Shown: positions 6,220 through 53,046 of the stretch, one piece after another | Layout: each line of letters opens with the position of its first letter | Numbering within the stretch: the stretch's first letter is position 1 | Assembly (NCBI GenBank): GCA_900450455.1 | Contig: UGGN01000001.1 | Location: forward strand, 434,001-498,000 | Direction: 5' to 3' | From: [Eubacterium] infirmum | GTDB lineage: Bacteria; Bacillota; Clostridia; Peptostreptococcales; Anaerovoracaceae | DNA: 64,000 nucleotides | Notes under the pieces: model-generated | Told to the model about the DNA's origin: nothing | What the model saw: only the letters and a program-made list of their open reading frames with translations | Databases searched by the model: none | Position numbers and translations under genes: made by a program

Positions 6220-6363
6220 ATATAGACATTGCTCAAAAATGCATTTTTGAAAAAATTAACATAGCAAAAAATAGAGCTTTTTGTTATTTTTTACATAAGC
6301 AAAAAAAGGCAAAAAAATACATAAAACTTGTGATATAGTATTAGTGTCAGAAAGTATAAACAA

Positions 6364-6384
6364 GACTTAAAGACAGTTTAAGTC
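6364..6384. repeat. Hairpin 1 with GACAG loop
   Basis: Perfect 8-bp stem, GACTTAAA (6364-6371) with TTTAAGTC (6377-6384), closed by the loop GACAG. First of three hairpins with the same loop but different stem sequence. Confidence 0.8.
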
Positions 6385-6390
6385 AGTGTG

Positions 6391-6417
6391 CCGAAAGCTA
6401 ATGCTTTCGGTATTTTT
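6391..6417 (+). terminator. Terminator-like hairpin downstream of parB
   Basis: CCGAAAGC-TAAT-GCTTTCGG followed by TATTTTTG. Probably an intrinsic terminator for the replication/partition operon, sitting inside the candidate oriT. Confidence 0.65.
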
Positions 6418-6447
6418 GTATAAGCATTGATAATTCAATGTTTATAC
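6418..6447. repeat. Inverted repeat in candidate oriT
   Basis: GTATAA-G-CATTGA pairs with TCAATG-T-TTATAC around a short loop. It separates GACAG hairpins 1 and 2. Confidence 0.6.
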
Positions 6448-6453
6448 AGCTTT

Positions 6454-6508
6454 GCAAATTGCATAAGCTCTATTTAAGACAGTTAAATAGAGGGGGCGTG
6501 CAATTTGC
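6454..6508. repeat. Hairpin 2 with GACAG loop, nested inside an outer inverted repeat
   Basis: Inner perfect 10-bp stem CTCTATTTAA (6468-6477) with TTAAATAGAG (6483-6492), loop GACAG (6478-6482). Outer perfect arms GCAAATTGC (6454-6462) and GCAATTTGC (6500-6508) enclose it, so a branched single-stranded fold is possible. Confidence 0.8.
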
Positions 6509-6516
6509 GTATACAA

Positions 6517-6561
6517 GATATACCATATCTGCCCACCTGCGGTGGGCAGATATGGTATATC
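6517..6561. repeat. Perfect 21-bp inverted repeat with 3-nt loop
   Basis: Arms 6517-6537 (starts GATATACCATATC, ends GCCCACC) and 6541-6561 are perfect reverse complements around TGC. The longest palindrome in the window and the most likely relaxase-recognition or strand-termination hairpin in this region. Confidence 0.85.
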
Positions 6562-6575
6562 CGACCTATCGGTCG

Positions 6576-6592
6576 CTCGAAGACAGTTCGAG
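6576..6592. repeat. Hairpin 3 with GACAG loop
   Basis: CTCGAA (6576-6581) pairs with TTCGAG (6587-6592) around the loop GACAG; a further G-T pair extends the stem. Loop centres of hairpins 1-3 are at 6374, 6480 and 6584, i.e. 106 and 104 bp apart. Confidence 0.75.
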
Positions 6593-6758
6593 TTGCCAGC
6601 AGGGGCGCTGCCCCCTTTGGATTACCCCCAGCGCATTACCGGCCAAAGCAGCATAGCTCCTTAAGCCTGTAATGCTAAGGGAAAAGCCTTACGGCTTTTC
6701 AAGGAAAATTTTCACTTTGTGAAAATTAATCTCTTATCTATTGAAAAGGAGAAGAACA

Positions 6759-7094
6759 GTGTTTTGGTATATTTTGAAGAAATTAATTAAACCGGCTCTT
6801 GTGCTTTTAATTATAGGATTAATTTTGCATAGCAATAAAAAAAGAAAGCTTCACAGGATATCATCACAAGATATATATAAGTATCTATATCAATATGAAA
6901 TAGGATTATCAAATGGAGATATATTAAAATTACAAGGTTCTTCAGATTATGATAAACATAACCGTGAATCTTTTCTAATGTACTATTGCAATATACAAGA
7001 GAATCCTTTAAATTATGTTATTAATCTCAACGGTGAAGATATTACTATTAATAAAAAGCAAATATCTTTTGAAAAAATATATAGATTGAGGTAA
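6759..7094 (+). CDS. Small membrane-anchored protein upstream of the relaxase
   Basis: 111 residues from GTG 6759 (AAAAGGAG 9 nt upstream); a TTG at 6741 would lengthen it but overlaps that RBS. N-terminal membrane segment FWYILKKLIKPALVLLIIGLILH, then a lysine-rich cytoplasmic part. No known domain. Ends 2 bp before the relaxase gene, so the two are co-translated; an accessory mobilisation role is inferred from position only. Confidence 0.6.
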   Translation: MFWYILKKLIKPALVLLIIGLILHSNKKRKLHRISSQDIYKYLYQYEIGLSNGDILKLQGSSDYDKHNRESFLMYYCNIQENPLNYVINLNGEDITINKKQISFEKIYRLR

Positions 7095-7096
7095 GT

Positions 7097-7900
7097 ATGG
7101 CATCTAATCAAAAGTTTAATAAACATGCTGTATATAATCAGCTCAAGCATGTATCAAGAGAACTTAAATATCCTAAAAATATTGATATCGATAAAAACAG
7201 AAGTCACTTAAATTATTCTTTAGCTCCGGAAAGAAATATGACGGAGTTTGAATATCTAAAAAAAAGGCTTGATGAAATATATATACACAGCGATAGACAA
7301 GATATTAACTATATGAGCGGATGGATTATAACTAAGCCTAAGGAATTACCGGATGAATACGAAGAAAAGTTTTTTAAAGCTTGTTATGATTTTCTTTCCA
7401 ACAGATATGGCGGAGATAAAAATGTTATAAGTGCTGATGTACATAAGGATGAATCAGGAGAGCCACATTTACATTTTTGTTTTGTGCCGGTGGCGCAAAA
7501 CATACCTAATGAAAATATGGTAAAGGTAATTAATTATCTTAAAGAAAATCCGGATGCAAATAACACGAAAGCAGCTAAGGAGCTTGGGATAAGCAGAAAG
7601 ACGGTAAGAAGATATAGAAATTGCACGGACAAGGATATAAAGTATGAAAAGCTTTCAGCGAAAGATGTAATTAATAAAGCTGACCTTCAAAGTTTTCATC
7701 AGGATTTACAAAAGTATCTTGATAAACTGAGAATCCCGGCAAGGGTATATACTGGAATTACAAAAGCACGAGGCGGCAATATGACAGTGCAGCAACTCAA
7801 GATGCAAAGAAATCATTTAATAGAGCATGGTGGAAATGTAGATGAGATAGTTAAAACTATAGATAATATATTGAATGAGTTTGATAATGGTATAATATAG
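7097..7900 (+). CDS. MobV-family (Pre/Mob) relaxase with internal HTH
   Basis: 267 residues. Motif I-like NRSHLNYSLAPERNMT (~35-50) and the histidine motif HKDESGEPHLHFCFVPV (~116-132) identify a Pre/Mob (MobV) relaxase, which nicks oriT and attaches to the 5' end of the transferred strand. Next to the HxH motif is an HTH, TKAAKELGISRKTVRRYRN (~155-173), unusual for MobV enzymes I know. Shorter than the ~400-500 residues of plasmid Pre proteins; it ends without the long C-terminal coiled coil. The candidate oriT lies upstream. Confidence 0.85.
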   Translation: MASNQKFNKHAVYNQLKHVSRELKYPKNIDIDKNRSHLNYSLAPERNMTEFEYLKKRLDEIYIHSDRQDINYMSGWIITKPKELPDEYEEKFFKACYDFLSNRYGGDKNVISADVHKDESGEPHLHFCFVPVAQNIPNENMVKVINYLKENPDANNTKAAKELGISRKTVRRYRNCTDKDIKYEKLSAKDVINKADLQSFHQDLQKYLDKLRIPARVYTGITKARGGNMTVQQLKMQRNHLIEHGGNVDEIVKTIDNILNEFDNGII

Positions 7901-22903: not shown

Positions 22904-23677
22904 ATGATTTATAAACATGAAGATGGAACAATTAATACCTTTTATCAAAAAGGTGAAACAGTCGAATATCCGAGCGATGAGGAAGTAATTAAATATATAG
23001 ATAATGCAGACTCATGGGATGCGGTTGATAATGAAGTATATGAAGAGTTATGCGAAAGGCTTGGAATAGACAGTAGTGAGTTTGATGATCCTGATTCTTT
23101 ATTTATAGAAATACAAACACAATTTATTTACAACAAGTGTAACCTTGAATGTTGGCGAAGAGGCGAAATCCGTGAAGATTTTGAGAATGGATTAACTTTT
23201 GAGCAGGTTAAGCTTTACGCTAAGCCCGAGTTTGAGTATGGGCAGATTATAAATATTAGGAGAGGACTTGAAGGCGGGCTATCAAAAGAGCAGGTTCAGC
23301 TTTATGCTAAGCCGGAGTTTAAATACTGGCAGATGGAAGAAATTCGTGCAGGCTTTTATAACGGACTAACTTTTGAACAAGTAGAACTTTACGCTAAGCC
23401 CGAGTTTAAATACTGGCAGATTATAAATATTAGGAGAGGACTTGAAGGCGGGCTATCAAAAGAGCAGGTTCAGCTTTATGCTAAGCCCGAGTTTGAATAC
23501 TGGCAGATGGAAGAAATTCGTGCAGGCTTTCAGAACGGACTAACTTTTGAACAAGTAGAACTTTACGCAAAGCCTGAGTTTGAGTGTCTACAAATGGATC
23601 AAATTAGGAGAGAACTTGAAGACGGATTAACTTTTGAGAAAGTGATGGCACAGATTTCAGAACAATCTAATGGATGA
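22904..23677 (+). CDS. Tandem-repeat protein (29-residue YAKPEF repeats), tail out of frame
   Basis: 257 residues. After an acidic N-terminal ~85 residues come about five tandem units of 29 residues with core LYAKPEF-(E/K)-Y-x-Q-x-x-x-I-R-x-G and GL(S/T)xEQV. The DNA repeats every 87 bp and is nearly identical in a 174-bp higher-order unit. Similar helical-repeat proteins occur in clostridial ICEs; function unknown. The frame stops at TGA 23675-23677, but the +1 frame from after 23645 continues into MDEEMEF and TAA at 23691, i.e. the shared tail, so a recent frameshift is likely. Confidence 0.7.
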   Translation: MIYKHEDGTINTFYQKGETVEYPSDEEVIKYIDNADSWDAVDNEVYEELCERLGIDSSEFDDPDSLFIEIQTQFIYNKCNLECWRRGEIREDFENGLTFEQVKLYAKPEFEYGQIINIRRGLEGGLSKEQVQLYAKPEFKYWQMEEIRAGFYNGLTFEQVELYAKPEFKYWQIINIRRGLEGGLSKEQVQLYAKPEFEYWQMEEIRAGFQNGLTFEQVELYAKPEFECLQMDQIRRELEDGLTFEKVMAQISEQSNG

Positions 23678-27361: not shown

Positions 27362-27418
27362 AAGGCTTAAAAGTCGCTTAAAAACGATTTTAGAGCCTTG
27401 TTTTTATGTGGAAAGGTA
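27362..27418 (+). terminator. Repeated hairpin/RBS cassette, copy C
   Basis: AAGGCT (27362-27367) with AGCCTT (27394-27399), T5, then GTGGAAAGGTA. The core is identical to copies A and B; only the left flank and the last bases differ. Heads the DUF3991-Toprim gene. Confidence 0.85.
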
Positions 27419-27423
27419 AAGAG

Positions 27424-29016
27424 ATGAATAAGAAAGATTACATTGAACCTAACTTAGTTAAAATTGCAGCAGATCAGGATGTATTTGATATATTATCAAG
27501 AGATGGCGTGCCAATGAAGCTTACCTCAGGAGTGTATAGACATAGAGAACATGACAGTATGGTTATATCACCGGGGAAAGGTTTTTATTGGTTTTCGCAA
27601 GGGTACGGATCTAAAAATCCTATAGATTACTATATTAAGGTTGAAGGTATGCCTTTTACTACGGCAGCATACCATGTTCTTGAGGTGATGAACTATGATT
27701 TCACAAGAAAAGATATAGTAATATCAGATAGTTTTGCTGCAAATCCAAACTATATACACGGTGAATTTTCTCTTCCGGAAAAGGCTGAGAATAACAAGAA
27801 CGTCTATGCATATCTTACAAAAACAAGAGGGCTTAACAAAGATATTGTAAAAAGTCTTTTAGACAAAGGGCTTATTTACCAGGATAAAAAATACAATAAC
27901 GCTGTTTTTGTAGGTAAAGACTATGACGGTAATATTGTAAGTGCTTTTAAGAGAAGTACAAGAACATATGGAAACTCTAACTTCAAAAGTGGTGATGAAT
28001 ACGGTAGCATGAAAGAATATAGATTTAGAGTTGAAAACCATACAAATACTACAGTAAATGTATTTGAGAGTGAGATTGATCTTTTATCGTACCTTAGCAT
28101 GCTTCCGGAGCTTGCAAGAAATGAAAACTATATAGCACTCGGTGGCGTAAGCGATAGAGCATTAACTGCTTTTTTGGAAAGGAACGCTGCCATAGAACAT
28201 ATTAATATATGTACAGATAATGATAAGTATGGATATAGATTTTGCACAAAGATAGCAGAAACGATAGGTAAGGACTATTACATTACCCGGGAAATTCCAA
28301 TAAATAAGGATTTTAACGAGGATTTAACAAAAGGCTTGCAATATGAAAGAAATAGAATAGATGTTATAGTCTTCGATGACGCTACAAAGCAAATGACAAA
28401 AAAAGAAAAGATAAAGTATATTAATGAAATATTTAGCAATAAGTACCAGGGCATGCAGGTTGAGCTTCCGTTCCCTGATATAAACGCTTTTTCTGATAAA
28501 GAAAAAAATGCAAACATCAATAGAATCACTAATCACCATTTCAAACATATGGATAAAATTGAAAGCTATAAATCATATAAAACAAAATTAAATATAGGTG
28601 TTGAAAAGGACTTGGTTAATTTGATAGAAACATCGACGTATGTTGGAAGTAAGGAAGAAGCTAAAGAAAACCAAAATTCAATTCATAAAGCAACTGAAGG
28701 GTGGCATTACTTTAACAAACCTCTTATTATTGATGATTATATTTGCATGATGATAGTTGATATAAGAGAAAATAGTAATAATGATTTATTCGTACATAAG
28801 ATAAGGCTAAAGGAAATAGAGTTTAACTTGTTAAATAGAAAAGATGGCGAGTTCTCCCAAACTCTCTTTACGAGAGCTTTAACCCGGGAGCAACCGCCAT
28901 CAGATATATATAATAATAAATGTGATGGGAATAAAAGTCAAGACCTTAAGAAACAAAAAAAGAATGAAGATGAAGAATTTTTCCTTTCAAAAGATGAGGA
29001 GGAATTTGAATTTTAA
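27424..29016 (+). CDS. DUF3991/Toprim-domain protein with DEEEFEF tail
   Basis: 530 residues from ATG 27424; the in-frame ATG at 27406 is inside cassette C. DUF3991-type segment FYWFSQGYGSKNPIDYYI (~54-71), then Toprim: VFESEIDLLSYLSML (~213-227, acidic Glu) and ICTDNDKYGY (~262-271, DxD). A primase-like Toprim but without the zinc finger and RNA-polymerase parts. Plasmid primases such as RP4 TraC are sent into recipients during mating; here the C-terminus LSKDEEEFEF carries the shared tail. A strong terminator follows at once. Confidence 0.85.
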   Translation: MNKKDYIEPNLVKIAADQDVFDILSRDGVPMKLTSGVYRHREHDSMVISPGKGFYWFSQGYGSKNPIDYYIKVEGMPFTTAAYHVLEVMNYDFTRKDIVISDSFAANPNYIHGEFSLPEKAENNKNVYAYLTKTRGLNKDIVKSLLDKGLIYQDKKYNNAVFVGKDYDGNIVSAFKRSTRTYGNSNFKSGDEYGSMKEYRFRVENHTNTTVNVFESEIDLLSYLSMLPELARNENYIALGGVSDRALTAFLERNAAIEHINICTDNDKYGYRFCTKIAETIGKDYYITREIPINKDFNEDLTKGLQYERNRIDVIVFDDATKQMTKKEKIKYINEIFSNKYQGMQVELPFPDINAFSDKEKNANINRITNHHFKHMDKIESYKSYKTKLNIGVEKDLVNLIETSTYVGSKEEAKENQNSIHKATEGWHYFNKPLIIDDYICMMIVDIRENSNNDLFVHKIRLKEIEFNLLNRKDGEFSQTLFTRALTREQPPSDIYNNKCDGNKSQDLKKQKKNEDEEFFLSKDEEEFEF

Positions 29017-29058
29017 AAACGGCGGCATGTGAGAGTAATCTCATATGCCGCCGTTTTT
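29016..29058 (+). terminator. Strong intrinsic terminator at the end of the ICE operons
   Basis: AAAACGGCGGCAT and ATGCCGCCGTTTT with inner GTGAGA/TCTCAT form a near-perfect 19-bp stem with a 4-5-nt loop and a run of T. It starts on the last A of the Toprim gene's stop codon. Confidence 0.92.
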
Positions 29059-29222
29059 TCGTTTTTAAGAAGATATATAATAAAAGCGAGTTGACTTATA
29101 TACTAATATGGTTAAAGCTGCTTAAACACTAAAATAGAGGCTTGAAGGAATAGCATTATGTTATAGACAAGGGAAAACCTTTTTTGTATAACGATAACAG
29201 GGGAAAATATTGGAGATGTTAT

Positions 29223-30281
29223 ATGAGAAAATTTAAGCACCTTGACTATTCAAAGAGACAGCAAATCGAGCGTATGCTAAAGAAAAGATATACACCTTCC
29301 GAAATATCAAGCTGTCTTGATGTTGCACTTAGTACAATTTATCTTGAGATAAAGAGAGGTACTTGTGAGCAGTTGAAATCAGATTTAACCAAAGTAATGG
29401 AATATAAAGCCGATTTTGCACAATATAAATATGAAGCTAATCTTAAGAAAAAGGGAAGAAGAGCAAAGATAGAACGAGATCAAAAATTAAATAAGTACAT
29501 ATACAGCCTTATAAAGGATAAAAAGTATTCTCCTAAAGCCATTATATATGAGCTTATAAACAGTGGTATTAATTTTGATGAAAGTATCAAGTCATATACC
29601 ACAATATATTCTGCTATAAAAAAAGGGTTTATTCCGGGAATTAAAAGAAAAGATTTACCGAGAGGAAAGTATAAGGTAAGGCTTCCTAAGGATAAAAAAT
29701 ACAAAAGAAATATCCCTGGTAAAAGCATTGAAGAAAGACCTTTAGAAGTGGATGAAAGAAAGGTTTTCGGTCACTGGGAAATGGATTGCGTTTTAGGCAA
29801 AAAGGAGAATAAGAAGGCAGCACTTGTTTTCACTGAAAGAAAAACAAGATATGAAATTATTGAAAAATTAAAGTATCACACAACAGATGAAGTAGTAAAA
29901 GCATTGAATCGTGTTGAAAAAAGATGTAAGAGCAGCTTTTATACTGTGTTTAAATCTATTACTGTTGATAATGGACACGAATTTATGGATTGCAGTGCTA
30001 TGGAAAAGGCTTTATATCGCAAAGGAAAGCGCACAGAAATATATTATTGCCACCCAAATTCTCCTGGAGAAAGAGGCAGTAATGAGAATTGTAATTTGCT
30101 TGTGAGGAGATTTCTCCACAAGGGTATGGATTTCGATAAATATCTTACAACTGTAAAAGCAAAAGAAGTTCAGGAATGGATCAACACATACCCAAGGGGA
30201 ATACATAAAGGAAAAACTTCAAAAGAGCTTTTTATCACTGAACTTATAAAGCTCGGAGTGGCGCATTATTACAGATGTTGA
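29223..30281 (+). CDS. IS30-family DDE transposase (likely ICE recombinase)
   Basis: 352 residues from ATG 29223 (GGAGATG upstream; the ATG at 29184 has no RBS). N-terminal HTH (HLDYSKRQQIERMLKKRYTPSEIS...STIYLEIKRG), catalytic Asp in HWEMDCVLGKKENKKAAL, Asp in SITVDNGHEF, Glu in SPGERGSNENCNLLVRRF: an intact DDE triad in IS30 style. It is the only recombinase of the element and sits at its right edge. ICE6013 of Staphylococcus aureus is known to move with an IS30-like DDE transposase, so I infer the same here; a plain IS30 passenger is the alternative. Confidence 0.9.
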   Translation: MRKFKHLDYSKRQQIERMLKKRYTPSEISSCLDVALSTIYLEIKRGTCEQLKSDLTKVMEYKADFAQYKYEANLKKKGRRAKIERDQKLNKYIYSLIKDKKYSPKAIIYELINSGINFDESIKSYTTIYSAIKKGFIPGIKRKDLPRGKYKVRLPKDKKYKRNIPGKSIEERPLEVDERKVFGHWEMDCVLGKKENKKAALVFTERKTRYEIIEKLKYHTTDEVVKALNRVEKRCKSSFYTVFKSITVDNGHEFMDCSAMEKALYRKGKRTEIYYCHPNSPGERGSNENCNLLVRRFLHKGMDFDKYLTTVKAKEVQEWINTYPRGIHKGKTSKELFITELIKLGVAHYYRC

Positions 30282-30539
30282 AGTAAATGTAAATGAATTT
30301 ATAGTATCGAACAGTCAGAAATATATCACGAAAAAATAAAAATCCTTGTATGAATCAATCTATACAAAAGGATTATTTATAATGCATAGAAATTACAAAT
30401 AATCAGTGTTTAATTTAGTAATATGTTCTTAATTTTATATAAACAATTTGATAAACATTTGAGCGTGCTTATATAATAACTTTATCATATACATGATAAA
30501 AAAATTATAATATTATTTGAAAAAAATTCCGATTTAGTG
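30282..30539. other. AT-rich non-coding stretch holding the ICE right end
   Basis: No gene on either strand. It contains the transposase terminator, a perfect palindrome ATCAT-GTATATG-like region near 30484-30499 and many A/T runs. The ICE-chromosome junction must lie here but I cannot place it to the base. Confidence 0.5.
30341..30378 (+). terminator. Terminator-like hairpin after the transposase
   Basis: AATCCTTGTAT pairs with ATACAAAAGGATT (2-nt bulge), followed by ATTTAT. Ends the transposase transcript and keeps it from reading into the uvr region. Confidence 0.6.
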
Positions 30540-30568
30540 TTGACATTTAATAAAAGATTTTTTGTAAA
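30540..30568 (+). promoter_or_regulatory. Promoter of the uvrB leader
   Basis: TTGACA (30540-30545), 17-bp spacer, TGTAAA (30563-30568). A consensus -35 with a weaker -10; transcription would start near 30575. Confidence 0.6.
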
Positions 30569-35937: not shown

Positions 35938-37374
35938 ATGTTTAAAAAAATAAATCTGACAATGCTTACAGACTTTTATGAAATAACCATGGCAAACGGT
36001 TATCTGGAGGCGGGAATAGAGGACGAAATTGCATATTTCGACATGTTCTTCCGCAAGGTGCCGGACGGTGGCGGATTCGCTATCATGGCGGGCATTGAGC
36101 AGGTTGTAGATTATCTCGATAATCTAAAGTTTACTGAAGAAGATATAGAGTACCTTAGATCAAAGGGTGCTTTCTGCGAGGAGTTCCTCGATTATCTTCG
36201 CAACTTCAAGTTCAGCTGCGATGTGTGGGCGGTTCCGGAGGGAACGCCGATATTTCCACATGAGCCGATTTTGACGGTAAGAGGCCCGGTTATGCAGGCG
36301 CAGTTCGTCGAGACGATGATTCTGCTGATTATAAACCATCAGAGCCTAGTTGCAACAAAGGCAAGCAGAATTGTCAGGGCGGCGCAGGGAAGACCGGTTC
36401 TTGAGTTTGGTACAAGAAGAGCTCATGGTCCTTCGGCAGCGGTATACGGTGCAAGAGCATCCTATATAGGCGGATGTGCAGGAACAGCCTGTACGATAGC
36501 TGACAGAGATTATGGGATTAAGGCCCTCGGAACCATGGCTCACAGCTGGGTTCAGATGTTCCCATCAGAGTATGACGCATTTAAGAAATATGCTGAGATT
36601 TACCCGGAAAATTGTGTTCTGCTCGTGGACACATATAATGTTTTGAAGTCCGGTGTTCCAAACGCAATAAAGGTATTCAAGGAGATGAAACCTGCAAAGA
36701 TGGGCATCAGAATTGATAGCGGTGATATGACCTATCTGACAAAGAAGGCGCGTAAGATGCTCGATGATGCCGGGCTTACAGATTGCCAGATTACCGTAAG
36801 CAACTCTCTGGATGAGTTCATCATCAGAGACGTCATTCTGGAAGGCGCGCAGATAGATGCATTCGGAGTTGGTGAAAGGCTGATAACAGCCAAGTCAGAA
36901 GCCGTGTTCGGTGGTGTTTACAAGCTCGTTGCTTTAGAAAAAGACGGTGTAACAATACCTAAGATCAAGGTGTCTGAGAACGTTGAAAAGATTACAAATC
37001 CGGGATTTAAGACACTTTACCGCCTGACTGATAAGACGAGCGGCAAGGTGCTCGCAGATGTTATGACTGTCGATGGCGAGACTATAGAGGAAGTTGATGG
37101 ATATGAAATCTTTGATCCGAAGGCGGTTTGGAAGCGTAAGAAGTTATATAACTTTGAAGCTAAAAACCTTCGCGTTCAGCTTTTTGATAAGGGTAAGAAC
37201 GTGCACAAGCCGCGTGAAATAGAGGAAATCAAGGTATACTGTAAGAATCAGATTGACAGCCTTTGGGATGAGATGCTGAGATTTGACAATCCACAGACCT
37301 ACTATGTAGACCTTTCACAGAAGCTCTATGACATGAAGCAGAACTTGATAAAGGAGCTTCATCTAGAAAACTAG
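35938..37374 (+). CDS. pncB: Nicotinate phosphoribosyltransferase
   Basis: 478 residues from ATG 35938 (GAGG upstream; earlier ATG at 35884 lies on the promoter). TDFYEITMANGYLEAG at the N-terminus, ILEFGTRRAHGP-like EFGTRRAHGPSA (~158), GTMAHSWVQMFPSE (~200, conserved His) and the RIDSGDM phosphate-binding stretch (~258). Converts nicotinate, PRPP and ATP to nicotinate mononucleotide in NAD salvage. An IS1249 copy has inserted exactly at the stop: the native TAA became TAG because the third base is now the first base of the IS. Confidence 0.97.
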   Translation: MFKKINLTMLTDFYEITMANGYLEAGIEDEIAYFDMFFRKVPDGGGFAIMAGIEQVVDYLDNLKFTEEDIEYLRSKGAFCEEFLDYLRNFKFSCDVWAVPEGTPIFPHEPILTVRGPVMQAQFVETMILLIINHQSLVATKASRIVRAAQGRPVLEFGTRRAHGPSAAVYGARASYIGGCAGTACTIADRDYGIKALGTMAHSWVQMFPSEYDAFKKYAEIYPENCVLLVDTYNVLKSGVPNAIKVFKEMKPAKMGIRIDSGDMTYLTKKARKMLDDAGLTDCQITVSNSLDEFIIRDVILEGAQIDAFGVGERLITAKSEAVFGGVYKLVALEKDGVTIPKIKVSENVEKITNPGFKTLYRLTDKTSGKVLADVMTVDGETIEEVDGYEIFDPKAVWKRKKLYNFEAKNLRVQLFDKGKNVHKPREIEEIKVYCKNQIDSLWDEMLRFDNPQTYYVDLSQKLYDMKQNLIKELHLEN

Positions 37375-38717
37375 GGCTATAGGACAAAAAGTGTGTGTAA
37401 AAACCGACATAACAGTTGATATTTCAATAGTTATGTCGGTTTAATCTTTTTTGAAAGAAGATTGAGGGTGGACAAAAAGTGTGTGTGAAAACTCTTTAAA
37501 ATATTGGAATTTCAATGATAAAACGTGGTATATCTTCCTTAGAATTAGTGTTCTTGGAGGAATATATTATGAAGCAGGTAAATTGTCCAATTTGTAATTG
37601 CAAATGTATAAAACACGGTAAGATAAAATCTGGCTCTCAAAGGTGGTTTTGTAAGTCTTGTAAGTTAGCGTTTACGCCAAAGATAGATAATGATACTAAA
37701 CAGCTTCAGCATTTCTTGGCTTGGTTATTCAGTAAAGAAGTACAAAGTAATATGTCAGGTGGTGGAAGAACTTTTAGAAGAAAAACCTCCAAGTTTTGGG
37801 ATATATGGGTTATGGCACCAAAGATTGAAAAATCAAAAGATGTACTGTATTTTGATGGTATATATCTATCGCGTAAATCGTGTATTTTGATATGTTGTGA
37901 CAAAGAACATGTATTAGGTTGGTACGTATGCAGATATGAGCATTCAGGAGCTTGGGAGGCTCTAATGAGTCGTATAGCAGAACCTAAGGTGGTTGTATCC
38001 GATGGTGGTAAAGGATTTAGAAAAGCACTTAAGAGAAAGTGGCCAAAGGCAAAGCATCAAAGATGCGTATTTCACGTGTTTTCACAGGTTAAAAGATATA
38101 CAACAAGTAGACCAAATACTTTAGCCGGGCTAGAGCTTTATGCACTGGCAAGGGATTTGTTTGATGTTAAAAGTATTGAAGACTCAAAGATATGGGTTGA
38201 TCGTTTTACAGGTTGGATTGTCAAGCATAAACGTTTTTTAAGCGAAGTAACATATGATGAAAATGGAAAGATAAGACCTAAGCATGAAAGACTGATAAAG
38301 GCTGAAAAATCAATGCTAAGACTACTTAATGATAATACTCTATTCACGTATCTTAATGAAGAATTAAGGGCTGAGTTTAAAATTCCATCGACAAACAATC
38401 GAATTGAAGGTGGTGTAAATGCTTGTCTTAGGGAGATGCTGCATAACCATAGGGGGTTATCTGTTGAGAGAAGAATTAAAGCGGTTTTTTGGTGGTGCTA
38501 TATGCACTCACCAAAACCGCTTTCTGCTTCTGAGATATTAAAAACAATGCCTACAAACAAGAGCATAGATGATATTTACAAGAAGATGACTGCCAAGAAA
38601 CAACTAGAAGATACTATTCCTATGTGGGGTGATGCAGTTGTATGGAGCGAGCTACATCATTCGAGCAATTATCCGGTGTACTGGGATTAGTCACACACAC
38701 TTTTTGTCCTATAGCCC
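37374..38717 (+). mobile_element. IS1249-family insertion sequence, copy 1
   Basis: 1,344 bp with perfect ~26-bp terminal inverted repeats beginning GGGCTATAGGACAAAAAGTG. Flanked by an 8-bp target duplication GAAAACTA (37366-37373 and 38718-38725). The left end carries a second, internal copy of the GGACAAAAAGTGTGTGTGA repeat at ~37469 and a hairpin (ACCGACATAAC/GTTATGTCGGT, 37403-37441) that may block read-in transcription. Appears identical to copy 2. Confidence 0.95.
37569..38690 (+). CDS. IS1249-family transposase (IS256-like)
   Basis: 373 residues from ATG 37569 behind GGAGG. N-terminal zinc-ribbon-like CPICNCKCIKHGK..WFCKSCK, then a DDE core: Asp in LYFDGIYL, Asp in VVVSDGGKGFRKAL and Glu in STNNRIEGGVNACLREML, with the CVFHVF motif of the IS256/mutator group. 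Looks fully intact and identical in translation to the copy at 51862-52983, so probably active. Confidence 0.9.
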   Translation: MKQVNCPICNCKCIKHGKIKSGSQRWFCKSCKLAFTPKIDNDTKQLQHFLAWLFSKEVQSNMSGGGRTFRRKTSKFWDIWVMAPKIEKSKDVLYFDGIYLSRKSCILICCDKEHVLGWYVCRYEHSGAWEALMSRIAEPKVVVSDGGKGFRKALKRKWPKAKHQRCVFHVFSQVKRYTTSRPNTLAGLELYALARDLFDVKSIEDSKIWVDRFTGWIVKHKRFLSEVTYDENGKIRPKHERLIKAEKSMLRLLNDNTLFTYLNEELRAEFKIPSTNNRIEGGVNACLREMLHNHRGLSVERRIKAVFWWCYMHSPKPLSASEILKTMPTNKSIDDIYKKMTAKKQLEDTIPMWGDAVVWSELHHSSNYPVYWD

Positions 38718-38755
38718 GAAAACTAAGACTAGTTGATAAGTGCTACAAGACCGAA

Positions 38756-45962: not shown

Positions 45963-45973
45963 GATAATTCATT

Positions 45974-46095
45974 TGACGGTGGGTAGAAAGCTATTATATA
46001 ATTTTTTATATAAGGGAAACAGGTGCAAGTCCTGTGCGGTCCCGCCACTGTGAGTCTAATTTTATTATGACAAGCCAGATACCTTTAACTCCATC
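45974..46095 (+). promoter_or_regulatory. Cobalamin (B12) riboswitch aptamer
   Basis: The B12-box core is clear: AAGGGAAACAGGTGCAAGTCC, then GCGGTCCCGCCACTGTGA (46037-46054) and the 3' conserved GACAAGCCAGATACC (46069-46083). Binds adenosyl- or other cobalamins in the nascent RNA. It lies in the leader of the 46200 surface-protein gene, not next to a cob/btu operon. Confidence 0.93.
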
Positions 46096-46138
46096 ATGCG
46101 ATGTACATGGGAGTTGTGATTTTTGGTGCGTAAATACG

Positions 46139-46160
46139 GTCGCATTTAAGCGACTTTTTT
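46139..46160 (+). terminator. Expression-platform terminator of the B12 riboswitch
   Basis: GTCGC-ATTTAA-GCGAC followed by six T, 40 bp before the start of the surface-protein gene. With the alternative ACTCC/GGAGT hairpin (46088-46114) it suggests control by premature termination: cobalamin bound, transcription stops. Confidence 0.8.
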
Positions 46161-46199
46161 ATTTTTAAAAACTAAATTATTTTATGAAAGGAACGACAA

Positions 46200-49100
46200 A
46201 TGAAACAGAAAAGCAAAACTAGAAAATTATTAGCATTTGTTCTACTTTTTGCAATGACACTGAGCAGTGTTCAGTTCGTGTTTGCGAATACAGGAGAGAA
46301 TGCGAATAACTCTGCTGCCGGTGAAAATCAGGTAAGCGAGAGAACGGCGCAGCCGCGCGCTGCATCCGGCAAACCTTCTACGGTGGATGAGACCAAGAAC
46401 TCTCTTGATGAGCCACATTTTGCTGTTGTTGCAATGAATAAAGAGGACGGACTCATATTTGAGCCACATAATGTCTGGGTGACGGATAATGAACCGATAT
46501 GGCTTGCACTTAAGAACAGTGGGCACAATTTTGAAAGCCTGGACACTGAAATTAAGAAGATTGACGGCAAGGTCGGAAACTATGTCAGATATTACAATGG
46601 CGACAAGTATGATTTGAGTGGACTTGGTAAGGATGCCGGTGCACTGGTTTTCACCGAGAGGCTCGATGAGGATGTAAAAACAAAGGAATATCAAGCACTT
46701 GTTGCGCTACTTGCTGATCATAAGAGTAAGCCTGAAGAGGAGAGGCAGTTTGACGATGTCAAGGCTGCTTATGATAAGGCTATACGAGAGCTGCCAAAGG
46801 CGGACAAAGAAAAGGCTGTAGCTCTGGCAAATGAACTTAAAAGCGCATATCAGAAATACAAGGAATGGACATCACAGGAAAAGGCAAAGGTAAGTTTTAA
46901 GGTAAGTAAGGATGGTAAGGCTGTTAACGATGCCAATATTTCTGCTGTAAACAAGTATGGCAAGGAATTCAAGGGCACGAGCGGAGCTCCGCTTGCTTTG
47001 AACAGCGGTGAATACAAGTTTGTCGTGAGCCACGGGCAGAACGAGGTGACCGGGACTTTTACGGTAAAATCCGCGGAGAACAAGACTATCGAGGCTCCTT
47101 TGATGCTTGATAACATGATCGATGACATGAAGTTCATGTCAGGAAATCCGGGGAGGACCGAACTAAATACTGTAAAGTCGGGATTTGATGTAAGTGTAAA
47201 GGCCTATGACGCTGATTCCGATCTCTATGCGAATATTACGCCGGGAACAGCAGTGCAGGGATATTCATGGAAGTACAAGCTTTATGCTGTTTACAAGGGC
47301 GTCTATGATGGCAGGGACTACGGTGACGAGAGTGAATCAAAAAATGTAATACCGTGGTCGAGCAACAACAGAAAGCTAAAGAATGTTATAAATTATGGAA
47401 TGTCGGCAGACAACTTTAAGATTAAGGTAGTTCATAAGCTGGATAGCGGTTACATGCAGAGGCAGTATTATCAGGTTAACACTCAGAGGATTCCAACGCT
47501 GAGTAAGCTGAATGTAACCGACAAAAATGGAAACACCATACCTATTAGCTTTGATCCTGAGACTTTAAGCTATACATTCGATACAACGGATGATAGGCTG
47601 ACATTTGACCTGGCTACGCAGAGAAAAAATGCTAACGCGAGCTACGGAAGTGCCGAAGAAGGATACGTAATCAAAATTAACGATAATTTCGTTGATGCGG
47701 GCAAGCACGAGGTAGATGCTACTCAAGGAAATGTAACTATTTCGGTAATGAACCTGAATACATATACCGAGAATACATATAGGATTGGCATCCAGAGGGT
47801 ACCTAGCTACAAAGTTACGGTAAATAAGGCAAAGGGTGTCGAAGTAAAGCTTTTAAACCGCATGGGCGGCTCAATCAAGGCTGATAAGGTCAATGATACA
47901 GAGGCGATCTTTCATGTCGGAGCCGGTGACTACGAGTGGATTTCAACCATAGATAAGGACTATCACGCAAAGGCGACAATCAAAGTTGAAGCCGGTAAAA
48001 CCAACACCTTTGAGGCAAAGACTCCGGTAAAGGAAGCTTTGATAAAGTCGCTTGCAACAGCGAGAAACTATAATGCAAGCAAACCTAACCCATACAAGGA
48101 AGCTAACGGAAAGAACTTTGACTGGAAGGAACACAGCTATAAGTATGTGGTTCCGGACTACTCGAGCATCTTTGATGTAAAGATTGAAAAAGCTGATAGC
48201 GATGTCACAATTTTCAGAGGCGAATACACTACCTACGATGGAACAAAGATAAAGGCTGAGAAATGGCTAAGTGGCGTTAATACGCAGAAAATCAGCAAGT
48301 TTATCAATGTCGGCGGACTCAATAATTCTGTGAATATGACAGCATCAAAGACCTCCGGCAATGTAACATACTATCAGGAATACAAGATTAGCACAGCGAG
48401 AAGTACATCGCTTCATTCACTAGATATCACAGATAACTTCGGAAAGGCTGTAGAGCTTTATGCGAATGGAAAGACAGGCTATAGCGATACCGTAAACAAG
48501 TATCAGACCGAGGTTTCTAGTGATGTAAGCTCAATTGATCTAAGCTTTACCTTCCCGGGAGAAGACGAAAGTGAAGAACTTGTCGGCAAGTATGTTGCGA
48601 AGATTCGCGGCAAGGAATATGTCCGCACGCAAGACGGTAAGACCATCAAAGTGAAACTCGATCTTGACAAAAACAAATCCGAGGAAGATGTTGAAATCGA
48701 GGTTGTAAACACGGAGACAGGAAATGTTAGCAATAAGTACACTGTAAAGGTTACGAAGAGACAGCCTGTAGCTGTGAGATTTAATACCAATCCTAAGGAT
48801 TCACGAATAAGCCTAAAGAACGAGAAGAGCGGTAAGGCCGTAAGTCCCGAGGCTGATGGAAGTTTCCTGCTCGTAAAGGGTACGTCCTATACATATACCA
48901 TTACACATGCTGATTACCTCTCTCAGTCAAAGAGATTTAAGCAGGAAGATCAGACTGAGATAAATGTTACCTTGATTAAGGCTCCCGTAAATACAAAGCT
49001 AAACAAGAATCTCAAGGCGGAGTGGCCAAATTTCAGATACGATACAAACAACAACGGCGTGCTGAACTATCCGCTTCCAAGAAATTCTTCAGAAACAGCT

Positions 49101-51575
49101 TTGTACTGGGCAACAAAATTCGGAACAGCTGACATGTACGGCTCGCTCGGATGCCCAATCATGGTAGATGGATACATTTATAACTATTCGGGAACAACAC
49201 TCCTGAAATTCGATTCTTTTACAGGAGAAATCGTAAAAACTGCACCTATGAAGAAGAAGTCTTCATTTGCTATAAACTCGCCTACTTATGCAGAGGGTAT
49301 GATTTTCGTAGGATTGGAGGATGGAACGATTCAGGCCTTTGATGCAGAGACTCTGGAGTCTCTGTGGATCTATGAAGCGCCTCACGGCGGACAGCCAAAC
49401 TGCCCGATTACATACAAGGACGGCTACATATATACAGGCTTCTGGGTTGGTGAGGAAAGCAGAGCGGATTTTGTTTGCCTATCTGTTACGGACGAGGATC
49501 CGACAAGAAAGGACGAAGTCAAGTCGGCTTCATGGGTTCACGAGGGAACCGGCTACTACTGGGCAGGTGCCTATGTAGGAAACGGTAATTCCGGCGAAAT
49601 AGAGATTGCATCAAAGCAGGCCAGAACCTATGTAGTTGTCGGTTCAGATGATGGCAAGAGTACGGGAAAAGCTTACGGAGAGCTTCTTTCACTTGATCCG
49701 ATAAACGGAAGAGTAATCGATTCAATCAAGGATACCTTTATTGGTGATATCAGAAGCACAATAATGTTCGATAAGGATACTGCCAGGTACTACTTTGTTA
49801 CAAAGGGCGGATATTTCTGCTCAGTTAAACTAAACGAGGACGGAAGCTTTGATAGAAGTTCAATCAAAACGCTCTCTCTCCTGCCAAAGAACTACCAAAA
49901 GTACCTATCGGGCAGCTCAAAATCATACATACCTATGAGCTCATCTACACCTGTAATACATAATGGAAGAGCATATATTGGAGTCGCCGGAAGCGGCAAT
50001 TTCTCAGCATATAGCGGACATAATATCTCAGTAATCGATCTGAAGAGCAACACCATTGCCTACTCGATTGAGACTAGAGGATATCCACAGGCTAGCAGCT
50101 TGCTGACTACAGCCTACGAGAAGGATGATCAGAGTGTATATGTATACTTCTTTGAGAACCTGACACCGGGAAAGATGAGAGTTATTAAAGATAAGCCGGG
50201 TCAGACTGAGCCTTCTGAGGTTGAAATCGAGAAAACTAATGACCAAAAAGAACATACGGTTGCGCCAACGCTTTTCACACCGTCAGGTGCTCATGCGCAG
50301 TATGTAATTTGTAGCCCTATAGCTGATGAGTACGGAAATATTTATTTCAAGAATGATTCATCACATATGTTCATGATAGGACCTACAATCAAGGAGATTA
50401 GGATTACAAGCAAGCCAAAGAAGACTGAGTACACTGTGGGAGATACCTTTGATCCTACCGGACTTAAGGTAGAAGCTGTATATAGCACCGGTAAGACCAG
50501 AGATATAACAAAGTATCTGGATTACAACAAGAGTCCGCTTACATTGGATGATGAGGACTTCGAAATTAGATTAAAAACAGGCTCTAGAATGTATCAGGAT
50601 AAAGATGGAAAGACTGATGTCACATATACTCCACCAACTGCATTCCTAGACCTGACAATAAAGCTTAAGAATAAAGATGACCCATCAAAGGAGCCAGTAA
50701 GACTAGCAGGCTCTGACAGATACGAAACATCAATCAAGGTAGCCCAAGAGCTTAAGAAAACGATGAATGTCGATAAGTTTGATGCAGCTGTCGTGGCATA
50801 TGGTGATAACTACGCAGATGCACTGTCAGGTTCATATTTAGCAAAAGTTAACAATGCACCGCTTCTTCTAATCAACGAGCATAATATGCAAGGTGCTCTA
50901 GATTTTATTAGAAACAATGTCAAAGCAGGAAAATCGAGCAAGGTTTACCTCCTGGGAGGCAGAGCTGTAATGCCTGAACTTATGAGAACAAAGCTGGAGG
51001 ATAGCTATACTGTGAAGAGACTTTCCGGCGACGATAGGTTTGCAACTAATATAGCCATCTTAAAGGAGGCAGGTGTAACCAATGAGGAGATAATTATTTC
51101 CTCCGGATACGGATTTGCAGATAGCCTTGCCGCATCGGCAACTGGAAGACCTATACTTCTTGTAGGTGATGAAATGACAAGTGGTCAAATGGCATACTTG
51201 AAGAGCCTAAAAACCAGAAAGTATACAATAACGGGTGGCTTTAAATCTGTAAATAGAGCAATTGAAGGATGGTTAAGCAGTTTAGGCTCGGTGAGCAGAG
51301 TATACGGAGAAGATCGATATATGACATCCCTTGAAATAGCAAAGCACTTCTTCAAGAATCCTAAGAGTGTGGTTATAGGATATGGAGATAACTTCCCTGA
51401 TGGACTTTGTGGAGGGGTACTTGCTGAGAAACGTGGGGCAGCAATGCTTTTGATTAATGAGTACAACTTTGATTTTGCCAAGCAGTATGTAAAGGATAAT
51501 GCAATAAAGGATCAAGTAGTGCTTGGAGGAAAAAGATTAATATCGGACGATTTACTAAATTATATAGTTCGATAG
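46200..51575 (+). CDS. Giant cell-wall protein: cadherin-like and PEGA-like domains, PQQ-like beta-propeller, Ig-like domain, CWB2 repeats
   Basis: 1,791 residues; RBS AAAGGA. Signal peptide (KTRKLLAFVLLFAMTLSSVQFVFA). Region ~75-150 (FAVVAMNKEDGLIFEPHNVWVTDNEPIWLALKNSG) looks like a ligand domain. Cadherin-like sandwich domains (~430, ~736), PEGA-like segments (~545, ~857), a PQQ-like propeller (~937-1390; e.g. FVGLEDGTIQAFDAETLESLWIY), a bacterial Ig-like domain (~1396) and three CWB2 modules (~1498-1791; VRLAGSDRYETS) that bind wall polymers. Under B12 riboswitch control, so a role in corrinoid capture at the surface is inferred. The PQQ fold may bind a non-PQQ ligand. Confidence 0.9.
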   Translation: MKQKSKTRKLLAFVLLFAMTLSSVQFVFANTGENANNSAAGENQVSERTAQPRAASGKPSTVDETKNSLDEPHFAVVAMNKEDGLIFEPHNVWVTDNEPIWLALKNSGHNFESLDTEIKKIDGKVGNYVRYYNGDKYDLSGLGKDAGALVFTERLDEDVKTKEYQALVALLADHKSKPEEERQFDDVKAAYDKAIRELPKADKEKAVALANELKSAYQKYKEWTSQEKAKVSFKVSKDGKAVNDANISAVNKYGKEFKGTSGAPLALNSGEYKFVVSHGQNEVTGTFTVKSAENKTIEAPLMLDNMIDDMKFMSGNPGRTELNTVKSGFDVSVKAYDADSDLYANITPGTAVQGYSWKYKLYAVYKGVYDGRDYGDESESKNVIPWSSNNRKLKNVINYGMSADNFKIKVVHKLDSGYMQRQYYQVNTQRIPTLSKLNVTDKNGNTIPISFDPETLSYTFDTTDDRLTFDLATQRKNANASYGSAEEGYVIKINDNFVDAGKHEVDATQGNVTISVMNLNTYTENTYRIGIQRVPSYKVTVNKAKGVEVKLLNRMGGSIKADKVNDTEAIFHVGAGDYEWISTIDKDYHAKATIKVEAGKTNTFEAKTPVKEALIKSLATARNYNASKPNPYKEANGKNFDWKEHSYKYVVPDYSSIFDVKIEKADSDVTIFRGEYTTYDGTKIKAEKWLSGVNTQKISKFINVGGLNNSVNMTASKTSGNVTYYQEYKISTARSTSLHSLDITDNFGKAVELYANGKTGYSDTVNKYQTEVSSDVSSIDLSFTFPGEDESEELVGKYVAKIRGKEYVRTQDGKTIKVKLDLDKNKSEEDVEIEVVNTETGNVSNKYTVKVTKRQPVAVRFNTNPKDSRISLKNEKSGKAVSPEADGSFLLVKGTSYTYTITHADYLSQSKRFKQEDQTEINVTLIKAPVNTKLNKNLKAEWPNFRYDTNNNGVLNYPLPRNSSETALYWATKFGTADMYGSLGCPIMVDGYIYNYSGTTLLKFDSFTGEIVKTAPMKKKSSFAINSPTYAEGMIFVGLEDGTIQAFDAETLESLWIYEAPHGGQPNCPITYKDGYIYTGFWVGEESRADFVCLSVTDEDPTRKDEVKSASWVHEGTGYYWAGAYVGNGNSGEIEIASKQARTYVVVGSDDGKSTGKAYGELLSLDPINGRVIDSIKDTFIGDIRSTIMFDKDTARYYFVTKGGYFCSVKLNEDGSFDRSSIKTLSLLPKNYQKYLSGSSKSYIPMSSSTPVIHNGRAYIGVAGSGNFSAYSGHNISVIDLKSNTIAYSIETRGYPQASSLLTTAYEKDDQSVYVYFFENLTPGKMRVIKDKPGQTEPSEVEIEKTNDQKEHTVAPTLFTPSGAHAQYVICSPIADEYGNIYFKNDSSHMFMIGPTIKEIRITSKPKKTEYTVGDTFDPTGLKVEAVYSTGKTRDITKYLDYNKSPLTLDDEDFEIRLKTGSRMYQDKDGKTDVTYTPPTAFLDLTIKLKNKDDPSKEPVRLAGSDRYETSIKVAQELKKTMNVDKFDAAVVAYGDNYADALSGSYLAKVNNAPLLLINEHNMQGALDFIRNNVKAGKSSKVYLLGGRAVMPELMRTKLEDSYTVKRLSGDDRFATNIAILKEAGVTNEEIIISSGYGFADSLAASATGRPILLVGDEMTSGQMAYLKSLKTRKYTITGGFKSVNRAIEGWLSSLGSVSRVYGEDRYMTSLEIAKHFFKNPKSVVIGYGDNFPDGLCGGVLAEKRGAAMLLINEYNFDFAKQYVKDNAIKDQVVLGGKRLISDDLLNYIVR

Positions 51576-51666
51576 CAAATGACAAAAACAGGAGCATTTA
51601 ATTGATATTAAACGAAGGGTGATGTTGCAGAATAGGTGATTCTATTCTGCGTATCAAAAAAGACGA

Positions 51667-53010
51667 GGGCTATAGGACAAAAAGTGTGTGTAAAAACCGA
51701 CATAACAGTTGATATTTCAATAGTTATGTCGGTTTAATCTTTTTTGAAAGAAGATTGAGGGTGGACAAAAAGTGTGTGTGAAAACTCTTTAAAATATTGG
51801 AATTTCAATGATAAAACGTGGTATATCTTCCTTAGAATTAGTGTTCTTGGAGGAATATATTATGAAGCAGGTAAATTGTCCAATTTGTAATTGCAAATGT
51901 ATAAAACACGGTAAGATAAAATCTGGCTCTCAAAGGTGGTTTTGTAAGTCTTGTAAGTTAGCGTTTACGCCAAAGATAGATAATGATACTAAACAGCTTC
52001 AGCATTTCTTGGCTTGGTTATTCAGTAAAGAAGTACAAAGTAATATGTCAGGTGGTGGAAGAACTTTTAGAAGAAAAACCTCCAAGTTTTGGGATATATG
52101 GGTTATGGCACCAAAGATTGAAAAATCAAAAGATGTACTGTATTTTGATGGTATATATCTATCGCGTAAATCGTGTATTTTGATATGTTGTGACAAAGAA
52201 CATGTATTAGGTTGGTACGTATGCAGATATGAGCATTCAGGAGCTTGGGAGGCTCTAATGAGTCGTATAGCAGAACCTAAGGTGGTTGTATCCGATGGTG
52301 GTAAAGGATTTAGAAAAGCACTTAAGAGAAAGTGGCCAAAGGCAAAGCATCAAAGATGCGTATTTCACGTGTTTTCACAGGTTAAAAGATATACAACAAG
52401 TAGACCAAATACTTTAGCCGGGCTAGAGCTTTATGCACTGGCAAGGGATTTGTTTGATGTTAAAAGTATTGAAGACTCAAAGATATGGGTTGATCGTTTT
52501 ACAGGTTGGATTGTCAAGCATAAACGTTTTTTAAGCGAAGTAACATATGATGAAAATGGAAAGATAAGACCTAAGCATGAAAGACTGATAAAGGCTGAAA
52601 AATCAATGCTAAGACTACTTAATGATAATACTCTATTCACGTATCTTAATGAAGAATTAAGGGCTGAGTTTAAAATTCCATCGACAAACAATCGAATTGA
52701 AGGTGGTGTAAATGCTTGTCTTAGGGAGATGCTGCATAACCATAGGGGGTTATCTGTTGAGAGAAGAATTAAAGCGGTTTTTTGGTGGTGCTATATGCAC
52801 TCACCAAAACCGCTTTCTGCTTCTGAGATATTAAAAACAATGCCTACAAACAAGAGCATAGATGATATTTACAAGAAGATGACTGCCAAGAAACAACTAG
52901 AAGATACTATTCCTATGTGGGGTGATGCAGTTGTATGGAGCGAGCTACATCATTCGAGCAATTATCCGGTGTACTGGGATTAGTCACACACACTTTTTGT
53001 CCTATAGCCC
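51667..53010 (+). mobile_element. IS1249-family insertion sequence, copy 2
   Basis: 1,344 bp, apparently identical to copy 1 and in the same orientation. Target duplication AAAGACGA (51659-51666 and 53011-53018), which is also the left arm of the terminator that follows, so the terminator was regenerated on the right side. Confidence 0.95.
51862..52983 (+). CDS. IS1249-family transposase (IS256-like), copy 2
   Basis: 373 residues, same translation as the copy at 37569-38690, with intact zinc-ribbon and DDE residues. Two identical copies mean recent transposition and make recombination between them possible, which would delete about 14.3 kb (fba to the surface protein). Confidence 0.9.
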   Translation: MKQVNCPICNCKCIKHGKIKSGSQRWFCKSCKLAFTPKIDNDTKQLQHFLAWLFSKEVQSNMSGGGRTFRRKTSKFWDIWVMAPKIEKSKDVLYFDGIYLSRKSCILICCDKEHVLGWYVCRYEHSGAWEALMSRIAEPKVVVSDGGKGFRKALKRKWPKAKHQRCVFHVFSQVKRYTTSRPNTLAGLELYALARDLFDVKSIEDSKIWVDRFTGWIVKHKRFLSEVTYDENGKIRPKHERLIKAEKSMLRLLNDNTLFTYLNEELRAEFKIPSTNNRIEGGVNACLREMLHNHRGLSVERRIKAVFWWCYMHSPKPLSASEILKTMPTNKSIDDIYKKMTAKKQLEDTIPMWGDAVVWSELHHSSNYPVYWD

Positions 53011-53046
53011 AAAGACGAGGATTTTTTAGCTTTCCTCGTCTTTTTA
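53011..53046 (+). terminator. Terminator of the surface-protein gene, beyond the IS
   Basis: AAAGACGAGG with CCTCGTCTTT and T-rich tail. Originally next to the 46200 gene; the IS now sits between. Confidence 0.85.

Follow-up and report, generated by a model that had tools for sequence, protein, structure and literature searches.

Why a cobalamin riboswitch should control a giant cell-wall protein is the question raised by one gene of [Eubacterium] infirmum (assembly GCA_900450455.1; genome of 1.9 Mb). The gene is located in a stretch of 64,000 nucleotides (bases 434001–498000 of contig UGGN01000001.1; hereafter the window, to which positions refer), in which an open reading frame (ORF) at 46200–51575 (+) encodes a wall protein of 1,791 amino acids (aa). 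An initial annotation, made from the letters of the window, had connected the protein either with corrinoid acquisition or with the replacement of a B12-dependent process. Sequence comparison and structure models indicate that it probably takes part, anchored in the wall, in a system that captures corrinoids (vitamin B12-type cofactors). The gene belongs to a riboswitch-linked set encoding giant surface proteins, and relatives of its propeller domain stand behind cobalamin riboswitches far more often than expected by chance.

A compact cobalamin riboswitch and a terminator precede the wall-protein gene

The leader contains the following features.

45963–46109 (+): cobalamin riboswitch aptamer, compact form (RF00174, 45.4 bits)
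45973–46002 (+): promoter-like site (TTGACG-18-TATAAT) that overlaps the riboswitch match in its 5′ part (sequence match; same hexamers in the orthologue)
46086–46116 (+): stem-loop, candidate P13-L13 (−9.6 kcal/mol, z −2.1)
46138–46165 (+): intrinsic terminator, GC stem and T tail (hairpin scan; −9.5 kcal/mol, z −2.2)

The RF00174 match (Rfam cut-off, the gathering score, 31.5 bits) had an E value of 3.4e-8 across the whole window and was recovered when 361 bases were scanned again. In the RF00174 alignment, 64 peripheral positions of the model are replaced by 13 bases, the conserved core and the B12-box region are present, and the expression platform (stem-loop and terminator) lies downstream. 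One terminator-like hairpin with a T tail was detected at 46138–46155, compared with 0.2 ± 0.4 in shuffled sequences. The riboswitch and terminator that had been proposed ahead of a single giant surface gene were thus recovered, with the correction that the element begins at 45963 and not at 45974. Also in line with the initial annotation, no cobalamin gene was seen on reading the window's 54 ORFs of at least 120 aa.

The leader of an orthologue from another genome of the same genus showed 92% mean column identity, with the terminator sequence kept. The stem-loop 3′ of the aptamer is a candidate P13-L13 of the expression platform, the name P13 being inferred; its counterpart in the orthologue folds less clearly (z −1.2). 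The promoter-like site matches the sigma-70 type at 11 of 12 positions and overlaps the Rfam match within its first 40 bases. Promoter-like sites were also seen to overlap or abut the starts of other short cobalamin riboswitches of this genome (loci L015, L016 and L017). Transcripts may therefore begin inside the Rfam match, so that the 5′ part of the riboswitch may be transcribed incompletely.

Domain organization of the wall protein

The protein is composed of the following parts, with residue numbers in brackets.

46200–51575 (+): wall protein, 1,791 aa (ORF; Pfam domains)
46200–46289 (+): putative signal peptide (about 1–30), read from the sequence
46431–46667 (+): N-terminal domain (78–156), predicted transcobalamin beta-domain fold (model with predicted local distance difference test, pLDDT, of 91.0; Z 6.2–6.6)
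46680–46871 (+): helical segment (about 161–224), from the structure model and structural comparison
47499–47798 (+): cadherin-like domain (434–533), Pfam, below cut-off
49017–50399 (+): predicted eight-bladed PQQ/BamB-like beta-propeller (940–1400), PQQ_2; model pLDDT 93.5; Z 37.2 to Cake8
50412–50630 (+): Big_3 Ig-like domain (1405–1477), Pfam
50700–51551 (+): three CWB2 cell-wall-binding repeats, Pfam

The CWB2, PQQ-like and Ig-like domains named in the initial annotation were all found at or above the Pfam cut-off (CWB2 in three stretches, E 1.4e-45; PQQ_2; Big_3). The PEGA domain was not found by the Pfam scan, and the cadherin-like domain scored 21.3 bits against a cut-off of 24.2 in the wall protein itself but passed the cut-off in all six relatives scanned. 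Assignment to known families was also considered: the scores were 59.2 bits for the surface-layer protein SlpA (NCBIfam equivalog cut-off, 650) and 13.7 bits for BamB (285.2), the fold being nevertheless common to the protein and BamB.

The CWB2 part (50699–51668) is 98.0% identical over 970 bp to 6161–7130 of locus L078, in another, frame-broken CWB2 gene, and the shared module may represent a recent copy or a gene conversion of the anchor. Directly 3′ of the wall-protein gene lies the second of two window copies of an insertion sequence (37361–38721 and 51653–53013; 99.6% identical), further copies of which stand beside the riboswitch-led giant gene of locus L013 and, in loci L076 and L077, close to CWB2 genes.

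Cobalamin riboswitches can control B12-independent isozymes, and by that precedent the protein might replace a B12-dependent process. No catalytic domain was recognised by Pfam or NCBIfam in its 1,791 residues, transport genes accompany its relatives (see below), and nothing was found that speaks for replacement, which is therefore considered highly improbable.

Relatives of the propeller are often encoded behind cobalamin riboswitches

A first set was drawn from a sample of the family of the host, in which 22 of 148 genomes (its own included) carried a relative, and from a sample of the class, in which 18 of 391 did so at E ≤ 1e-15, four of them already counted in the family. With the wall-protein gene itself excluded, each of two split gene calls counted once and fragments at contig ends retained, 40 places in 35 genomes were obtained. 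A regular-expression riboswitch core was dropped and Rfam calls alone were used, because the sequences were too diverse. RF00174 was matched within 16 kb upstream on the same strand at 27 of the 40 places, 24 of them above the Rfam cut-off (the exceptions being G089, G510 and one place in G423), compared with 0.66 expected under uniform placement; on the opposite strand, none of the 40 places had an upstream match within that distance. Among the 11 genomes with exactly one RF00174 match, it lies upstream of the propeller gene in nine (one below cut-off), and in the other two (G036 and G092) the propeller gene is on contigs of 4.5 to 6.3 kb.

A second set, overlapping the first, was collected from public genomes with a propeller profile (A2). 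Of its 77 loci, 74 were kept (L096–L169) and three short weak matches (L170–L172; E 5e-9 to 2e-4) were dropped. The propeller family is found in many Clostridia, this set including Clostridium cadaveris, Acetitomaculum ruminis, Hominisplanchenecus faecis, Eubacterium aggregans, Proteiniclasticum ruminis and Syntrophaceticus schinkii. These loci include at most 9 kb upstream of the gene. When 61 of the 74 were analysed with Rfam, 24 loci proved to have upstream matches (26 in total) in the orientation of the gene; no match in that orientation lay downstream, and two matches were on the opposite strand. When RF00174 was searched in the whole genomes of eight loci or records, same-strand matches were located just past the locus edge in three close relatives, at 10.6 kb (L096), 9.1 kb (L107, assuming that it lies on contig C1) and 15.1 kb (L112) from the propeller; for the other five, no match could be placed near the gene.

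Searches of other sequence collections returned little. The only relative found in plasmids, on a plasmid of Vescimonas fastidiosa, covers 78% of the query, and the sole RF00174 match of that plasmid is below cut-off and 21 kb upstream. No relatives were found in genome contigs by a single-sequence search with the propeller, in viral contigs with profile A1, or in E. coli genomes with the propeller DNA, and phages gave one weak match.

Importer, DUF4430 and toroid genes recur beside the relatives

Neighbouring genes were surveyed in 47 named loci that were 12 kb or longer; at least one partner gene was present in 45. Genes for DUF4430 proteins (38 loci), transglutaminases (24), alpha/alpha-toroid proteins (23), MoxR (20) and DUF58 (20) recurred, together with those for the energy-coupling factor (ECF) importer components EcfT (19), EcfAA (19) and EcfS (15). 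Two layouts were recurrent, DUF4430-toroid-MoxR-DUF58-transglutaminase-propeller and the propeller with EcfT-EcfAA-EcfS. Six toroid partners were scanned with Pfam; four matched prenyltransferase-type toroids and two Cobalamin_bind, the transcobalamin alpha family (best match E 5.9e-5, 22.6 bits, below the cut-off of 25).

The initial annotation had named riboswitch-free homologues as a finding that would speak against its proposal. This check favours a role in corrinoid acquisition, because the relatives usually follow a riboswitch (27 of 40 places) and have ECF, DUF4430 and toroid genes as neighbours.

The same importer genes could serve a ligand other than corrinoid for which the cell has a need when corrinoid runs low; cobalt, a lower-ligand base and another tetrapyrrole come into question. 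EcfT resembles the CbiQ cobalt-transport family (28.9 bits in L059; 24.7 bits, just below the cut-off of 25, for the copy of the own genome), the S component of the own genome is best matched by riboflavin-type ECF S components, and a reviewer of the 2007 paper discussed below warned that ligands may differ from member to member of the clade (PMC1796856). A small metal ion is unlikely, though, to have a receptor bound to the wall, and the transcobalamin-like alpha and beta parts point to corrinoid; import of a different ligand is thus regarded as quite unlikely.

Predicted folds of the N-terminal domain and the propeller

Residues 75–150 had been suggested for binding assays in the initial annotation, and this region falls into the predicted transcobalamin-like fold. 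The segment 78–240 was modelled at pLDDT 91.0. By structural comparison, eight of the 50 matches listed start at the first residue of the model and end at 79/80, and seven of these are transcobalamin entries (Z 6.2–6.6; root-mean-square deviation, rmsd, 2.8–3.0; 76–77 residues, corresponding to transcobalamin 317–409). The cyanocobalamin-bound beta domain 5np4 was aligned end to end with the beta part (Z 6.2, rmsd 3.0, 76 residues). The eighth match is 3u7z of Ruminococcus gnavus, deposited as a putative metal-binding protein (Z 6.2), which we take to be a DUF4430 member; it was absent from the results of two PDB searches by sequence with DUF4430 domains. Nearly all remaining matches among the 50 fit the helical part. 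In the model, strands come after the helix, and may or may not correspond to the B12-contacting beta-hairpin insert that the transcobalamin clade has at this point. With moderate confidence, residues 78–156 are thus predicted to adopt the fold of transcobalamin's B12-binding beta domain.

In sequence, the domain appears too divergent for the Pfam DUF4430 model (PF14478; cut-off 23.8 bits), which was passed by the N-terminal part of two of six full-length relatives (L059, 24.1 bits; L060, 33.8 bits). A profile built from ten DUF4430 domains found, outside its training rows, L016 alone (7e-5).

The propeller was modelled at pLDDT 93.5, and eight blades were read from the strands of the model. 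Among the matches listed, the closest were the designed Cake8 (Z 37.2), YxaL (37.0 and 36.9) and BamB (34.2). The 28 most conserved loop residues other than glycine and proline were mapped, and 21 of them lie on one face, including W1082, W1121, R1185, Q1065, Q1297 and N1320; about 18 would be expected given that the loops of that face hold 63% of such residues (p 0.05–0.07). This marginal leaning is the pattern that a ligand site would give.

Riboswitch-led giant proteins and the ECF cluster of the same genome

RF00174 was matched 15 times in the genome, 13 times above cut-off. By reading, 11 of the 15 matches (9 of the 13) precede a protein of 873–1,791 aa with an export-type start, with a 330-aa ORF intervening between riboswitch and giant gene in L020. 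DUF4430 was detected by Pfam in four of the 11 giants (L010, L018, L020 and L015, the last below cut-off). When L016 (ten-domain profile), the window protein (predicted fold) and L009 (toroid match below cut-off) are added, 7 of the 11 carry a DUF4430-type or toroid part.

Adhesin-type domains also occur among these giants (LRR_5, GLUG, SHIRT and CWB2, with SpaA just below cut-off). Corrinoid level might thus serve as a sign of habitat, with the riboswitches timing the display of a set of scaffold or adhesin proteins, none of which binds corrinoid. The preponderance of giant surface proteins behind the riboswitches (11 of 15) and a propeller of the BamB/PQQ kind fit such a role. A habitat signal leaves unexplained, however, why ECF importer, DUF4430 and toroid genes share the relatives' clusters, and why the single riboswitch of a genome serves the propeller gene or its operon in 9 of 11 cases, and display of adhesins is accordingly judged unlikely.

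The genome's own ECF cluster is located at 565–582 kb of the contig in the order EcfT-EcfAA-EcfS-DUF4430-unknown-toroid lipoprotein-MoxR, insertion sequence, DUF58-transglutaminase; it ends with a weak riboswitch match (28.2 bits) followed by a 1,297-aa CWB2 protein. The window gene lies at 480.2–485.6 kb of the same contig, about 80 kb from the beginning of this cluster; standing apart with its own riboswitch, it is a detached member. Two or more CWB2 repeats are encoded by eight genes of this genome, one of them frame-broken, and four of the eight stand behind riboswitch matches. The insertion sequence that splits moxR from DUF58 (L075, 13508–14674) is presumably IS110-like.

The other four riboswitches precede a cbi operon with CbiK first, a FecCD-type ABC importer, a methyltransferase-like gene with an ABC importer, and a TIM-barrel gene. 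The third arrangement is seen at 7264–13496 of L010, where the importer is of the binding-protein-dependent type; NikABCDE-type systems behind B12 riboswitches are mentioned for Clostridium tetani in PMC2667541. The xylose-isomerase-like TIM-barrel gene (PF01261; L009, 7760–8976) is possibly an unrecognised corrinoid-related gene, and a gene resembling it by eye stands ahead of a riboswitch-ECF locus in L072 (359–1093).

Three further proteins (L011, 4053–4694; L014, 3866–4675; L013, 3999–7406) share by eye a similar DGTYS-type stretch and are perhaps tetrapyrrole or corrinoid binders; that encoded next to cbiK has a sub-threshold match to the haem-binding NEAT family (17.7, cut-off 32.8). An apparent mobile element of 3,186 bp in the window (27366–30551) is 100% identical to L013 1–3186, near the start of contig 1, where it adjoins another cobalamin riboswitch and giant surface gene. 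Elsewhere in the window, an ORF (22904–23677) encodes repeated AKPEF-type units, with a 287-bp direct repeat of 87.5% identity.

Observations weighing against corrinoid capture

Several results argue against the proposed role. RF00174 matches were present within 16 kb downstream on the same strand at 6 of the 40 places, and none was found within 16 kb upstream in 8 of the 35 genomes (G004, G019, G036, G083, G092, G144, G406 and G461); in G004 (two copies), G144 and G406, the contig leaves room for an upstream riboswitch. The queries of the neighbour survey were drawn from the same cluster type, and its counts stand without a random-locus control. A PDB sequence search with the toroid profile returned squalene-cyclase-type toroids and not transcobalamin, and the structural kin of the modelled propeller are BamB, YxaL, PQQ and designed propellers.

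The N-terminal assignment has its own counter-evidence. Foldseek returned nothing at E ≤ 0.001 for the model, and the Z scores of 6.2–6.6 are moderate, under the level that the comparison tool calls clear. Pfam DUF4430 was matched neither in the wall protein nor in any of 20 aligned N-terminal domains, alignment of the domain with DUF4430 by hhalign gave a probability of 23%, and the ten-domain DUF4430 profile scored at chance level against the wall protein, L019 and L012 (none of nine control proteins was better than chance). Neither DUF4430 nor a toroid was detected in 4 of the 11 riboswitch-led giants. Finally, corrinoid may be made by the cell itself, as the genome has a riboswitch-led cbi operon.

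Comparison with known B12 capture systems

The initial annotation had spoken of a new type of scavenger. This was too strong, because a 2007 paper had proposed that SLBB proteins of the transcobalamin type, some of them fused to toroid, Ig-like or propeller domains and neighboured by CbiO/CbiQ-like genes, scavenge B12 in low-GC Gram-positives (PMC1796856). As far as the main text of that paper goes, its proteins, like those described here, are secreted or wall-bound and combine a transcobalamin-beta-like domain with such parts; one Clostridium propeller case is named, operons contain a CbiO-like ATPase and a CbiQ-like membrane gene, and the word riboswitch does not occur. Relative to 2007, the present analysis adds that riboswitch control is frequent, that the propeller forms a conserved family, that MoxR-DUF58-transglutaminase genes are among the neighbours and that one genome has 11 riboswitch-led giants. 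Among the matches listed in a search of the open-licence PMC literature, preprints excluded, no other paper was found on riboswitch-linked DUF4430 or propeller wall proteins of Gram-positives.

The best-characterised comparison is BtuG of Bacteroides, a surface beta-propeller from cobalamin-riboswitch loci for which femtomolar B12 binding has been measured and no homologues outside Bacteroidetes were detected by its authors (PMC6143338, PMC10404256). Both systems thus have a surface beta-propeller in a cobalamin-riboswitch locus, whereas BtuG, a lipoprotein, has seven blades and operates together with BtuB of the outer membrane, and the wall protein has eight predicted blades, a CWB2 anchor and ECF genes near its relatives. 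Given the eight blades read from the model, the protein is not classed as BtuG; its propeller family may work as a BtuG-like receptor. BtuG was not among the 50 matches listed for the propeller structure, which excludes nothing.

Human transcobalamin is resembled in the predicted beta-domain fold at 78–156 and in the alpha-domain-like toroids of the relatives' clusters; it differs in that the alpha- and beta-like parts here are on separate proteins with weak sequence similarity (PMC5599065). With ECF-CbrT, a B12 importer, the present loci would share an ECF-type importer as the likely membrane step; no wall-bound partner of CbrT is mentioned in the available part of its description (PMC5997447).

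A possible dispersed transcobalamin system in Clostridia

The anatomy of the locus suggests how such a system may work. When corrinoid is ample in the cell, it would bind the riboswitch, the terminator would form and transcription would stop; when corrinoid is scarce, the protein would be synthesised and, after export, anchored in the wall through its CWB2 repeats. Corrinoid could then be caught by the transcobalamin-beta-like domain, by the propeller or by the two together, or else by a partner that they hold, and might be handed to the membrane-bound alpha/alpha-toroid lipoprotein and the DUF4430 membrane protein, which together would resemble a transcobalamin split over two genes, and from there to the ECF importer. 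The MoxR-DUF58-transglutaminase set may, as a guess, fit or cross-link surface proteins.

More broadly, and tentatively, with the odds somewhat against it, Clostridia may possess a dispersed, riboswitch-controlled transcobalamin system, the alpha (toroid) and beta (DUF4430) halves of the animal B12 carriers being divided between different surface proteins that a wall-anchored propeller protein with a BtuG-like role would link, and the whole feeding an ECF importer. If so, Gram-positives would have in it a counterpart of BtuB/BtuG, and the ancestral intrinsic factor a living relative; in this genome, it would have grown to about a dozen giant B12-controlled surface proteins. Surface capture of B12 has been worked out in Bacteroides (BtuG, BtuH); for Gram-positives, the 2007 proposal alone was found in the literature searched. 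The riboswitch-linked set with transcobalamin-like parts names concrete proteins and bears on the competition for B12 in the gut, and with it the bacterial origin of animal B12 carriers, an idea of 2007, becomes testable by biochemistry.

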